64,000 bases of DNA, taken from NCBI RefSeq assembly GCF_005771565.1, contig NZ_VAWA01000001.1, positions 74,638-138,637 on the forward strand, given 5' to 3'. Origin of the DNA: Nesterenkonia sphaerica (GTDB lineage: Bacteria > Actinomycetota > Actinomycetes > Actinomycetales > Micrococcaceae). Positions 35,390-38,800 of the stretch are shown one piece after another. The translations under genes and the position numbers were made by a program. The stretch's first letter is position 1; the number at the start of each line of letters is the position of its first letter. Under the pieces are notes generated by a model. That model saw nothing but the letters and a program-made list of their open reading frames with translations, was not told the DNA's origin and did not search any database.

Positions 35390-36061
35390 ATGAGCGACCC
35401 TCTTGCGGAGGACCCGGAGCAGCAGCCTCTGCCGGTTCTTGAAGGATCTGAGCTCGACGCCGCGCGCCAGATTTTCGGACAGCAGCTCCCTGGTGCTGAG
35501 AAGTACGTGGAGCACCTCTGCACCACTGGTATCACCCACGGTCTTCTGGGACCCAGGGAAGTTCCCAGGATGTGGGGCAGGCATGTACTGAACTGCGCGG
35601 TGGTGGGAAGCGAACTTCCGGAATCAGGCACGGTGGCGGATGTGGGGTCGGGGGCGGGCCTGCCGGGGATCGCCTTGGCGTTGGCGCGGCCGGACCTGGA
35701 CTTCATACTTATCGAACCTATGGAACGCCGGGTGGACTGGTTGGATATGGTCACCGGTGATCTCGAGCTGACGAACGTCCAGATCATTCGTGCTCGTGCC
35801 GAAGACGTCTCAGATGAAGTGATGGCGGATGTGGTCACGGCGCGTGCTGTGTCAGCTTTGAAGAATCTGATACCCCTGACTGTGCCGCTTCTGGATGATC
35901 ATGGGGAGCTGCTGTTCCTGAAGGGACGGACGGTGCAGGCAGAAATCGATTCGGCGCGGAAGGTCCTCAGCCGGTATCGACTTCAGGCACCGGAGATTCA
36001 CCTGGTTGGGACGGATGTGCTGGAAGAACCGACAACCGTAGTACGGACTCGGCGTCGCTGA
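35390..36061 (+). CDS. rsmG: 16S rRNA (guanine-527-N7) methyltransferase RsmG
   Basis: A 223-residue SAM-dependent methyltransferase acting on 16S rRNA. It has ADVGSGAGLPGIALALARPD (about 82-101) for SAM binding, then a conserved ARAVSAL and PLLDDHGELLFLKG. It sits between khpB and parA as in most actinobacteria. Confidence 0.95.
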   Translation: MSDPLAEDPEQQPLPVLEGSELDAARQIFGQQLPGAEKYVEHLCTTGITHGLLGPREVPRMWGRHVLNCAVVGSELPESGTVADVGSGAGLPGIALALARPDLDFILIEPMERRVDWLDMVTGDLELTNVQIIRARAEDVSDEVMADVVTARAVSALKNLIPLTVPLLDDHGELLFLKGRTVQAEIDSARKVLSRYRLQAPEIHLVGTDVLEEPTTVVRTRRR

Positions 36062-36119
36062 GCGAGATCGGTGTTTTCCGTGCGCTCAGCGGCCTGCCCC
36101 AGACGATAGTCTTGACCTT

Positions 36120-37010
36120 ATGACAGAATCGTTGTCCCACTCCCCGCTGGCTGCACAGTTGAAAGATGAACAGGACCGCCGCAAGAGGCTGTTGGGACGA
36201 ACGCTTCAACGGCCGGAAAACACCCGGATTCTGACCGTCTCCAACCAGAAGGGCGGAGTCGGAAAGACGACCACGACTGTTAATCTGGCGGCAGCCCTGG
36301 CTGACCACGGCTTCAACGTACTGGTCATTGATATTGACCCCCAGGGCAATGCGTCGACTGCGCTGGGAATCCCCCACTCGGCGGATACGGATTCTGTCTA
36401 CGATGTGCTGATTGACGATCTTGCACTGGCGGATGTCGTGACCGAATGCCCGGATATGGACAGACTGTGGGTTGTCCCTGCGACCATTCACCTTGCCGGG
36501 GCTGAAATTGAGTTGGTCTCGTTGGTCGCCCGTGAGCAGCGCCTGCAGCGCGCTTTGCAGGAGTACTTTCAGAGTCGGGAGAACGACGGGCAAGAGCGGC
36601 TGGACTACGTGTTTATTGACTGCCCGCCAAGCCTGGGTCTCCTGACGGTAAACGCCTGCGTGGCTGCTCAAGAAGTGCTGATCCCGATCCAGTGTGAGTA
36701 CTATGCGCTGGAAGGACTGAGTCAGCTGCTGAACAACATCCAGATGATCCAGAAGCATCTCAATCCGGTGCTGGCGGTCTCTACGATTCTGCTGACCATG
36801 TATGACGGGCGAACAAACTTGGCGTCCCAAGTTGTCAGTGAAGTCAAGGAACACTTTGCTGACGAAGTGCTTTCGGCAAAGATTCCCCGCAGTGTGCGCA
36901 TTGCGGAGGCTCCCAGTTACCAACAGTCCGTCATTACCTATGATCGGGCCTCTACCGGTGCACTGGCTTATTTGGAGGCCGCGGCGGAAATAGTCGAACG
37001 GGGTCAGTAA
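36120..37010 (+). CDS. parA: Chromosome partitioning ATPase ParA
   Basis: A 296-residue Walker-type ATPase. The deviant P-loop is NQKGGVGKTTTTVNLAAAL (about 42-60), followed by VIDIDPQGNAST and FIDCPPSLG. It moves origin regions with ParB and parS. No clear ribosome binding site precedes the ATG. Confidence 0.96.
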   Translation: MTESLSHSPLAAQLKDEQDRRKRLLGRTLQRPENTRILTVSNQKGGVGKTTTTVNLAAALADHGFNVLVIDIDPQGNASTALGIPHSADTDSVYDVLIDDLALADVVTECPDMDRLWVVPATIHLAGAEIELVSLVAREQRLQRALQEYFQSRENDGQERLDYVFIDCPPSLGLLTVNACVAAQEVLIPIQCEYYALEGLSQLLNNIQMIQKHLNPVLAVSTILLTMYDGRTNLASQVVSEVKEHFADEVLSAKIPRSVRIAEAPSYQQSVITYDRASTGALAYLEAAAEIVERGQ

Positions 37011-37026
37011 CTGGCGTAGCGATCTG

Positions 37027-37042
37027 TGTTTCACGTGAAACG
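37027..37042. promoter_or_regulatory. parS: parS centromere site 1
   Basis: TGTTTCACGTGAAACG matches the parS consensus TGTTTCACGTGAAACA in 15 of 16 bases, in the parA-parB gap. Confidence 0.95.
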
Positions 37043-37113
37043 GCCTGTCGTCTCCCGAACACGTTCTTCACCTCTAGAATTGAGGGGATTGACACTCAGA
37101 CCGGGAGGACGAC

Positions 37114-38364
37114 GTGGCGGAACGAAAGAAACGAGGCCTTGGCCGAGGGCTCGGCGCGCTGATCAACAGTGACGGCGGCAATGGGACGGGCCCGTCAGGG
37201 GCCGTGAACGCGGTTCCGACTATGGAGCCTAAACTTGCCCCAGAGCCATTGGACCCGGCTCCGTCGGACGACGTGGCAGCCGGTGGCGCCGAACGGCCGA
37301 TTGATGTCTTCTTTTCCGCTAAGTCTCACCTGCAGACGCAACGTGTTTCACGTGAAACGCACCAAGAAGCTGGTTCTTCCCGCGCTTACGGGTCTCGCGA
37401 GACGTCACCGCGCAGAAAGAACGGCGTGGGGCGCGTCGAAATGCCTGACGTCCTTGGGGCACGGAAAACCGAGCAGGATACCGGAGGATTTTCGCCAGGT
37501 GGAGATCACGCTGGCGTTTCACGTGAAACGACGCCCAGCCAGGACGACGACGCAGTATTTCGTGACATCGATGTGAATCTGGTGCAGCCCAATCCCCGTC
37601 AGCCCCGAGAGGTCTTCGATGAGACGGATATGGCTGAATTGGTGCACTCTGTCCGGGAGATTGGCGTGCTGCAGCCGGTGGTAGTCCGCCCCGTTGAGGA
37701 CGGCCGATATGAGCTCATCATGGGAGAGCGACGCTGGCGTGCCTCTATTCAAGCGGGTAGGACAACCGTACCCGCACTCATCCGGAAGACGGCGGACGAG
37801 GATCTGCTGCGGGATGCGCTCCTGGAGAATATTCACCGCTCTCAGTTGAATCCGCTGGAGGAAGCAGCTGCCTACCGACAGCTATTGGACGATTTTGGCA
37901 TCAGTCAGGAGGAGCTTTCCCGGCGAATCGGCCGCTCCCGTCCTCAGATCTCCAATACGCTGCGTCTGATGAAACTTCCGGCGGCCGTTCAGCGCCGTGT
38001 GGCTGCAGGGGTGTTGTCCTCGGGACATGCTCGGGCGCTGCTCAGTCTTGAGGACCCTGACCAGATGGACGAGCTGGCGCGGCGTATTGTCTCGGAGGGT
38101 CTCTCAGTGCGCAGTGCAGAGGAGCAGGCCCTGGTGGTCAAAACCGACAAAGCCGAGGACAACGTTTCACGTGAAACGCGTCGACTGCCCAGCACGACCC
38201 GCGTGCAGGAACTCGACGAATATGCAGAAGCCCTGACCGACAAATTGGACACTCAGGTGAAGATCAGCATGGGGGCGCGCAAAGGACGCATCGCTATCGA
38301 TTTTGCTTCTGTGGAGGACCTCGAGCGAATCCTGGAACACATGGGTGCCTACGTCCAGCGATAG
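37114..38364 (+). CDS. parB: Chromosome partitioning protein ParB
   Basis: A 416-residue CTP-dependent clamp. The first 150 residues form a long, low-complexity tail. Then come the ParB N-terminal domain with GERRWRA (about 209-215) and ENIHRSQLNPLEEA (about 238-251), a helix-turn-helix (about 260-300) and a dimerisation domain (to 416). The GTG start has GGGAGGAC upstream. Three parS sites lie inside the gene, in the same frame, each encoding VSRET (residues 78-82, 135-139 and 351-355). Confidence 0.96.
   Translation: MAERKKRGLGRGLGALINSDGGNGTGPSGAVNAVPTMEPKLAPEPLDPAPSDDVAAGGAERPIDVFFSAKSHLQTQRVSRETHQEAGSSRAYGSRETSPRRKNGVGRVEMPDVLGARKTEQDTGGFSPGGDHAGVSRETTPSQDDDAVFRDIDVNLVQPNPRQPREVFDETDMAELVHSVREIGVLQPVVVRPVEDGRYELIMGERRWRASIQAGRTTVPALIRKTADEDLLRDALLENIHRSQLNPLEEAAAYRQLLDDFGISQEELSRRIGRSRPQISNTLRLMKLPAAVQRRVAAGVLSSGHARALLSLEDPDQMDELARRIVSEGLSVRSAEEQALVVKTDKAEDNVSRETRRLPSTTRVQELDEYAEALTDKLDTQVKISMGARKGRIAIDFASVEDLERILEHMGAYVQR
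37344..37359. promoter_or_regulatory. parS: parS site 2, inside parB
   Basis: TGTTTCACGTGAAACG is in parB codons 78-82, encoding VSRET. The palindromic 14-base core GTTTCACGTGAAAC is perfect. Confidence 0.95.
37515..37530. promoter_or_regulatory. parS: parS site 3, inside parB
   Basis: CGTTTCACGTGAAACG contains the perfect 14-base parS core, in parB codons 135-139 encoding VSRET. Confidence 0.94.
38163..38178. promoter_or_regulatory. parS: parS site 4, inside parB
   Basis: CGTTTCACGTGAAACG contains the perfect core, in parB codons 351-355 encoding VSRET, in the region before the dimerisation domain. Confidence 0.94.
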
Positions 38365-38404
38365 GTCGCTGAGTAATCGACATACAGAGTAATGGACACA
38401 CGAA

Positions 38405-38446
38405 ATGAATTGGCCCCCTCTCCAGAAGGACAGGGGGCCAATTCAT
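38405..38446. terminator. Bidirectional terminator between parB and trxA
   Basis: Perfect 15-base arms ATGAATTGGCCCCCT and AGGGGGCCAATTCAT enclose a 12-base loop. It lies between convergent parB and trxA and can serve both directions. Confidence 0.9.
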
Positions 38447-38473
38447 GCGCACGGGCTCAGACGGCGCCGGTGA

Positions 38474-38800
38474 CTATTTCAGCCATTGAGCGAATTCCTG
38501 CTCCAGCGCGGGCTTTGGCTTAGCGCCGATTGAGGCGTGCACCTTCTCCCCGCCGCTGAAGGCGAAGACGGCTGGGATGGACGTGATGCCGTACTTCGCG
38601 GCCGTACCGGGATTCTCATCCACATTGAGCTTGACGACCTCGATCTGTCCGGAGTGCTCGTCAGCCAGTTTTTCCAGCTCAGGGCCCAAAGCCCGGCAGG
38701 GTCCGCACCACTCGGCCCAAAAGTCGACAAGAACTGGCTTATCGGCCTTGAGCACATCCTCCTCGAAGCTTGCATCGGTGACGGCTTTGATATTAGCCAT
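38474..38800 (-). CDS. trxA: Thioredoxin
   Basis: A 108-residue thioredoxin with the active site WCGPC (residues 30-34) and conserved cis-Pro region in GITSIPAVFAF. It lies 39 bases downstream of trxB on the same strand. Together they form the cytoplasmic disulfide-reducing pair. Confidence 0.97.
   Translation of the reverse strand: MANIKAVTDASFEEDVLKADKPVLVDFWAEWCGPCRALGPELEKLADEHSGQIEVVKLNVDENPGTAAKYGITSIPAVFAFSGGEKVHASIGAKPKPALEQEFAQWLK

Follow-up and report, generated by a model that had tools for sequence, protein, structure and literature searches.

The parS sites are the centromere sites to which ParB binds, and the locus studied here raises the question of why such sites lie inside the gene of their own binding protein. 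In the window, a stretch of 64,000 nucleotides from the Nesterenkonia sphaerica genome, three of the four parS sites are found within parB, and all three encode the same pentapeptide, VSRET. Either the DNA site or the peptide could be the object of selection, and the repeats could have arisen by copying or by independent gain.

Organization of the parB locus

The gene encoding the partition-locus ATPase, parA (positions 36120..37010, forward strand), is followed after a gap of 103 bp by parB (37114..38364, forward strand), which starts with a GTG codon and encodes a protein of 416 residues. Exact copies of the 14-bp parS core, GTTTCACGTGAAAC, start at position 37028 in the parA-parB gap (site at 37027..37042) and at positions 37345, 37516, and 38164 in parB (sites at 37344..37359, 37515..37530, and 38163..38178). 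Inspection of the cores verified the claim of the preliminary description that the internal sites share one frame: each is read GTT TCA CGT GAA ACG from codon position 1 of the GTG-started frame, and VSRET occupies codons 78-82, 135-139, and 351-355. Compared with the parS consensus TGTTNCACGTGAAACA, as given in PMC7022226, the four sites have exact 14-bp cores and differ in one or two of the outermost bases of the 16-mer. They span 1,150 bases and account for all sites detected with at most one mismatch in the whole assembly (2,789,228 bases, 86 contigs, 99.27% complete).

The preliminary description also reported a further related peptide, GSRET, at codons 93-97 (37390..37404, forward strand), written in codons that destroy the parS core. 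This was correct, since the corresponding sequence, GGGTCTCGCGAGACG, differs from parS at 5 of 14 bases and is not a parS site. Just 5′ of the first internal parS, the N-terminal linker contains the stretch RPIDVFFSAK (37294..37323, forward strand), which is invariant in eight Nesterenkonia ParBs. Pfam matches back the identity of rsmG, parA, and parB; the neighboring genes, which we take from their sequence to be yidC, jag, and trxA/trxB, were matched in relatives. Scanning positions 35900-38500 for promoters and terminators gave a single promoter-like match and two terminator-like ones, which did not stand out clearly from shuffled sequences.

The window's ParB is a predicted parS binder

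Judged by its domains, the protein is a normal chromosomal ParABS protein of the Spo0J/ParB type. It harbors ParB_N (residues 149-241), HTH_ParB (244-339), and the C-terminal dimerization domain ParB_C (371-410), all above the Pfam cut-off, and its gene directly follows that of a ParA Walker ATPase (AAA_31, 1.2e-57). The best solved relative is Stage 0 sporulation protein J (6sdk, E 1.1e-46). A predicted CTP-binding motif, GERRWRA, is present at residues 204-210 and is invariant in eight sequences; a role of the GERR motif in CTP binding is described in PMC12207404. Residues R276, T282, K287, and G304, mapped by spacing, correspond to residues 173, 179, 184, and 201 of PMC7383237. On this mapping, R and G at the specificity positions point to a parS-binder rather than Noc. 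Assignment to the nucleoid occlusion protein Noc was rejected, the score being 208.7 bits versus a curated cut-off of 315 and R and G not being NBS-type residues. The same genome has another, distant match to ParB_N (G000:C20:14830-15021, E 2.2e-7), perhaps belonging to a mobile element.

Distribution of parS in the genus and family

Comparison involved 165 loci from the genus (29), the family (76), and the class (60). The eight named relatives found were all Nesterenkonia. Short or overlapping loci (L001-L014 and L045-L070, of which L007-L014 entered a single separate analysis) and the second piece of a broken gene (L044) were left out of the counts; for the genomes of L025, L026, L028, and L030, longer loci were used instead. 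The class set comprised 60 of the 77 genomes other than G000 and G009, mostly those with the best ParB_N scores. Among 30 genus genomes, one (G204) had no ParB match.

Among the 29 genomes of the genus that have a parB locus, 28 carry one or more parS within the gene, for a total of 70 sites; individual members had one to four such sites, with a single member having none, and the total number of sites per genome with a parB match ranged from 4 to 13. The internal sites recur in four slots. N1 precedes the RPIDVFF motif and N2 follows it closely; N3 precedes the N-terminal domain, and C falls in the short linker leading to the dimerization domain. In the 27 genomes used for slot counts (L042 is broken and L043 could not be aligned), N1 was occupied in 24, N2 in 13, N3 in 23, and C in 15, with the reservation that some N1 positions may be non-homologous. 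The parB gene of the window fills N2 (codons 78-82), N3 (135-139), and C (351-355). In genome G201, all five sites are likewise confined to the interval that starts 55 bases upstream of parB and ends at slot C. The parB frame is split into two pieces in Nesterenkonia pannonica (L014) and in G207 (L042/L044), possibly owing to sequencing errors.

In the family set, parB contained 59 parS sites and parA 42; other conserved frames accounted for 2 sites and the remaining fetched stretches for 353. A site was considered as coding if its open reading frame was conserved in 8 or more other loci, and the non-coding counts may therefore include some genes. At least one genome with a parB site was found in 21 of 31 other genera. 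Scarce intergenic room was considered as a cause of the sites in parB and rejected: the number of parB sites did not depend on the size of the parA-parB gap in the family (rho -0.06, p 0.60, 75 genomes), indicating that a shortage of room is not a general cause, and the genus displayed a weak trend (rho -0.43, p 0.06, 20 genomes). The gap reached 2.2-2.4 kb in L149 and L150, versus a genus median of 452 bp (20 genomes), which suggests additional genes or a miscalled parA.

Reading frame and position of the internal sites

All 135 parS sites found in parB genes of the 165 actinobacterial loci (70 in the genus, 59 in the family, and 6 in the class) were in the VSRET frame, as was one further class site detected with looser bounds. 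Counting one site for each of the 21 other genera and the four slots of Nesterenkonia, the frame was the same in 25 of 25 cases (binomial p 6e-8 versus an even choice between two frames). The VSRET frame was also used by 96 of 104 sites in parA (all three sets) and by 19 of 26 sites in RsmG open frames (class set). The remaining 8 parA and 7 RsmG sites were in the frame encoding FHVK, although some of these may precede the true start. In the class loci (L151-L210), parS was frequent inside parA (60 sites) and RsmG open frames (26 sites), mostly in the VSRET frame.

The shared frame has a simple explanation. One of the two alternative frames contains an in-frame TGA and the other introduces FHVK into a linker rich in Ala, Ser, Pro, and Glu, FHVK being 37-49 times less likely than VSRET on the basis of the residue and codon composition of the linkers. 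Thus, a function of the peptide is unnecessary to account for the frame.

The position of the sites obeys a second regularity. Among the 132 placeable parS sites of related ParBs, 117 were in the N-terminal linker, 15 in the C-terminal linker, and none in the folded domains. Placement was based on 153 of the 165 ParBs, 12 without an anchor being left out; one of the latter, L146 from another genus, also has its site in the C-terminal linker. An AlphaFold2 model of the window's ParB, of modest overall quality (mean pLDDT 57.9, eight sequences), displayed pLDDT values below 50 at residues 1-148 and 350-363, which include all three sites. These results support the idea, put forward with the preliminary description, that parS is tolerated inside parB because the sites fall in disordered linkers.

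Selection probably acts mostly on the DNA site

Chance matches can practically be dismissed as the origin of the internal sites. With at most two mismatches allowed, the four matches compare with a mean of 0.15 and a maximum of 2 in shuffled sequences (none of 100 shuffles reached four), about 1e-4 exact sites are expected in 15,389 linker codons, and the slots are conserved in relatives. The serious alternative holds that the peptide is selected, as a linear motif of the ParB linker, and that the match to parS is incidental or secondary. VSRET should then abound in other codons. The 165 ParBs contain 115 VSRET peptides, of which 110 are encoded by the exact parS codons and 5 by codons differing by one base, leaving none (0/115) in non-parS codons. 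Single-base variants of parS in parB altered the peptide in 32 of 37 cases, mostly to VSRGT (17) or VPRET (8), and these peptides appeared where non-coding parS sites had changed likewise. The two commonest base changes accounted for 25 of the 37 variants in parB and for 100 of 156 variants outside par coding sequences. In genomes with mostly variant non-coding sites, 12 of 18 parB sites were variant, versus 13 of 109 elsewhere. For the 70 genus and family genomes, the association between variants inside and outside parB (Fisher 2e-6) and the correlation of their shares (rho 0.45) are overstated by these tests, related genomes being non-independent. In parA, 25 of 34 single-base variants altered the peptide and 9 were synonymous; these variants are of little informative value because the synonymous share resembles that of random change (10 of 42).

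In five genomes (L029, L031, L147, L148, and L150, corresponding to G197, G202, G138, G153, and G212), GTTTCACGTGGAAC, GTTCCACGTGAAAC, or a double variant takes the place of the symmetric parS at every fetched site, or almost every one, whether coding or non-coding. In the first four, every site of the fetched stretch is variant, both inside and outside parB.

The retention of VSRET in parS codons, together with the tracking of non-coding parS by the variants, indicates that the peptide follows the DNA. The peptide is also absent from slot N3 in three of the four genomes that have no parS there (L024, L029, and L148), the fourth (L147) having a nearby VSRE written in other codons. Although slot N2, considered below, behaves differently, the proposal that the peptide is the selected entity appears very unlikely. 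The sequence comparisons argue that the internal sites are kept by selection on DNA and that VSRET is mostly a by-product.

Peptide conservation at slot N2

The pattern that the preliminary description had set against its own reading, namely a peptide kept among relatives while its codons vary freely and match no parS, was absent for VSRET and was largely found at codons 78-82. All 14 of the 27 genus genomes without parS at N2 keep [VI]xR[DE] with varying codons, in spite of 5-7 mismatches to parS. According to a rough simulation assuming six independent losses, such retention would occur by random change with a probability of about 2e-10. In a clade of nine, the residues are VARDS, VARES, or IARES while the codons vary, within a stretch conserved from PIDVFF to MPDVL; slot C of the same clade reads LGRE. 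At N1, one of the three genomes without a site (L017) has VSRTT. The long-branch genus member L043 is an exception, with neither parS nor the peptide at N2.

The persistence of the peptide in 14 of 14 genomes indicates that selection on DNA is not the whole story at N2. Parsimony favored neither parS nor the bare peptide as the initial state (5 versus 6 changes). Hence two histories can be proposed from these sequences, either repeated loss of parS from a peptide that matters or repeated gain of parS on a peptide that nearly matched it, and codons 78-82 appear to be subject to a [VI]xR[DE] constraint overlapping the DNA site.

The neighboring motif P-x-[DE]-x-F-F, mostly RPVDxFF, was detected in the disordered N-terminal linker of 73 of the 76 ParBs from the family and 4 of the 60 from the class; a looser RPIDVFFSAK pattern was present in all 28 ParBs tested from the genus. 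This motif may bind a partner.

Origin of the internal sites and of GSRET

The occurrence of identical 14-bp cores, several per gene and all in a single frame, is in line with the suggestion of the preliminary description that parS spread within parB by copying, for which gene conversion and short duplication are candidate mechanisms. The flanks of sites from the same parB were slightly more alike than control pairs (32% versus 29% identity, 61 pairs), an excess of 3.7 points (Wilcoxon p 0.004) obtained with 26 related genomes that share slots and are non-independent. Outside the core, exact likeness did not exceed 3 bases on the left side and 5 on the right, which makes copying of a long unit unlikely. 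Moreover, the frame is accounted for without copying, and other genera have their sites at other positions of the linker. We therefore regard spreading by copying as unlikely, the small flank excess being weakly in favor of it at best. Repeated local gain of a short core agrees better with the sequences than does the duplication of a longer unit. The bare core may have been copied, an event indistinguishable from point mutation.

GSRET can be due to chance. About 1.0 SRET is expected by composition in the 15,389 linker codons of the genus and family, and SRET outside parS was observed four times in linkers, including one case at slot N2 and one just 3 bases off parS, and once in a folded domain. 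GSRET was considered as a decayed parS and rejected, with 5 mismatches and nothing similar at this position in L016 and L017. Its 12-bp palindrome is unremarkable, as the parB genes of the genus (39,402 bp) contain 21 perfect 12-bp palindromes lacking a central CACGTG. In Corynebacterium glutamicum, sites with at least three mismatches are reported to recruit no ParB (PMC7083940), which argues against GSRET being a site.

Discussion

The three internal sites are most probably working parS centromere sites, kept by selection on DNA, accommodated in linkers, read in the VSRET frame owing to TGA and FHVK in the alternatives, and used for loading of ParB clamps. The sequence, its conservation, the frame rule, the linker placement, and the tracking of non-coding parS come from the present comparisons, and from known ParABS biology we infer ParB binding, CTP clamp loading, and centromere function. 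After loading at the three internal sites and at the nearby upstream site, ParB dimers would close into CTP clamps that slide along the par locus, which would make parB and the upstream gap the centromere of the chromosome. The conservation of the sites, which is that of parS, and their placement in linkers inside parB agree with the earlier suggestion that ParB binding, if it occurs, takes place on the gene of ParB itself.

Binding at this location could also hinder transcription of parB and thereby set the level of the protein, all detected sites of the window's genome being in or next to parB. In Pseudomonas aeruginosa, ParB represses genes adjoining the intergenic sites parS3 and parS4, and an excess of ParB lowers the mRNA levels of genes adjoining parS1-4, although native ParB has no such effect at the intragenic sites parS1 and parS2 (PMC5521831). 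In addition, genus members have one to four parB sites and one has none, a variation indicating that a fixed feedback is not conserved. Autoregulation by this route thus seems rather improbable. The same holds for a wider proposal that combines several claims and that we consider doubtful as a whole: that parB and the upstream gap would be the whole chromosomal centromere, that codons 78-82 would be selected twice, as DNA for ParB loading and as part of a linker motif (RPIDVFFSAK...[VI]xR[DE]), each constraining the other, and that ParB loading would tune the level of parB.

The presence of parS inside parB is already known. In Bacillus subtilis, as in the Nesterenkonia window, a native parS lies within parB: parS-359 is located in spo0J (PMC4442127), and ParB-GFP foci return upon its restoration as the sole site (PMC7614844). 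However, parS-359 is one of ten sites (PMC7022226), whereas the window's parB accounts for three of the four detected. Intragenic parS is also common in P. aeruginosa, in which 9 of 10 sites are most likely in coding sequences, but the relevant part of PMC4368675 presents these sites with neither a placement in parB nor a frame rule. C. glutamicum resembles Nesterenkonia by its actinobacterial ParABS system and its clustered sites, parS1-10, one of which is sufficient; it differs in that only parS1 is coding, in trpCF, the others being intergenic (PMC7083940). The sites in ParA and RsmG of other actinobacteria have the same core and mostly the same frame, but the host gene differs and the FHVK frame occurs. 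Limited literature searches did not reveal, in print, the concentration of every detected site at parB or the frame rule; among the matches listed, judged by title and start of abstract, none described a parS within parB for Nesterenkonia or its family, and the word VSRET gave no match in the literature searched. The sites themselves are of an ordinary type, and their concentration inside the gene of their own binding protein is unusual and well conserved.

In these bacteria, centromere sites are written in the coding sequence of the protein that binds them. The reading frame and the linker together provide a simple rule for the positions that bacterial centromere sites can take within genes. 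In lineages in which parS has drifted to GTTTCACGTGGAAC, the peptide of ParB is altered too, offering a natural case of selection at the DNA level overriding protein sequence.
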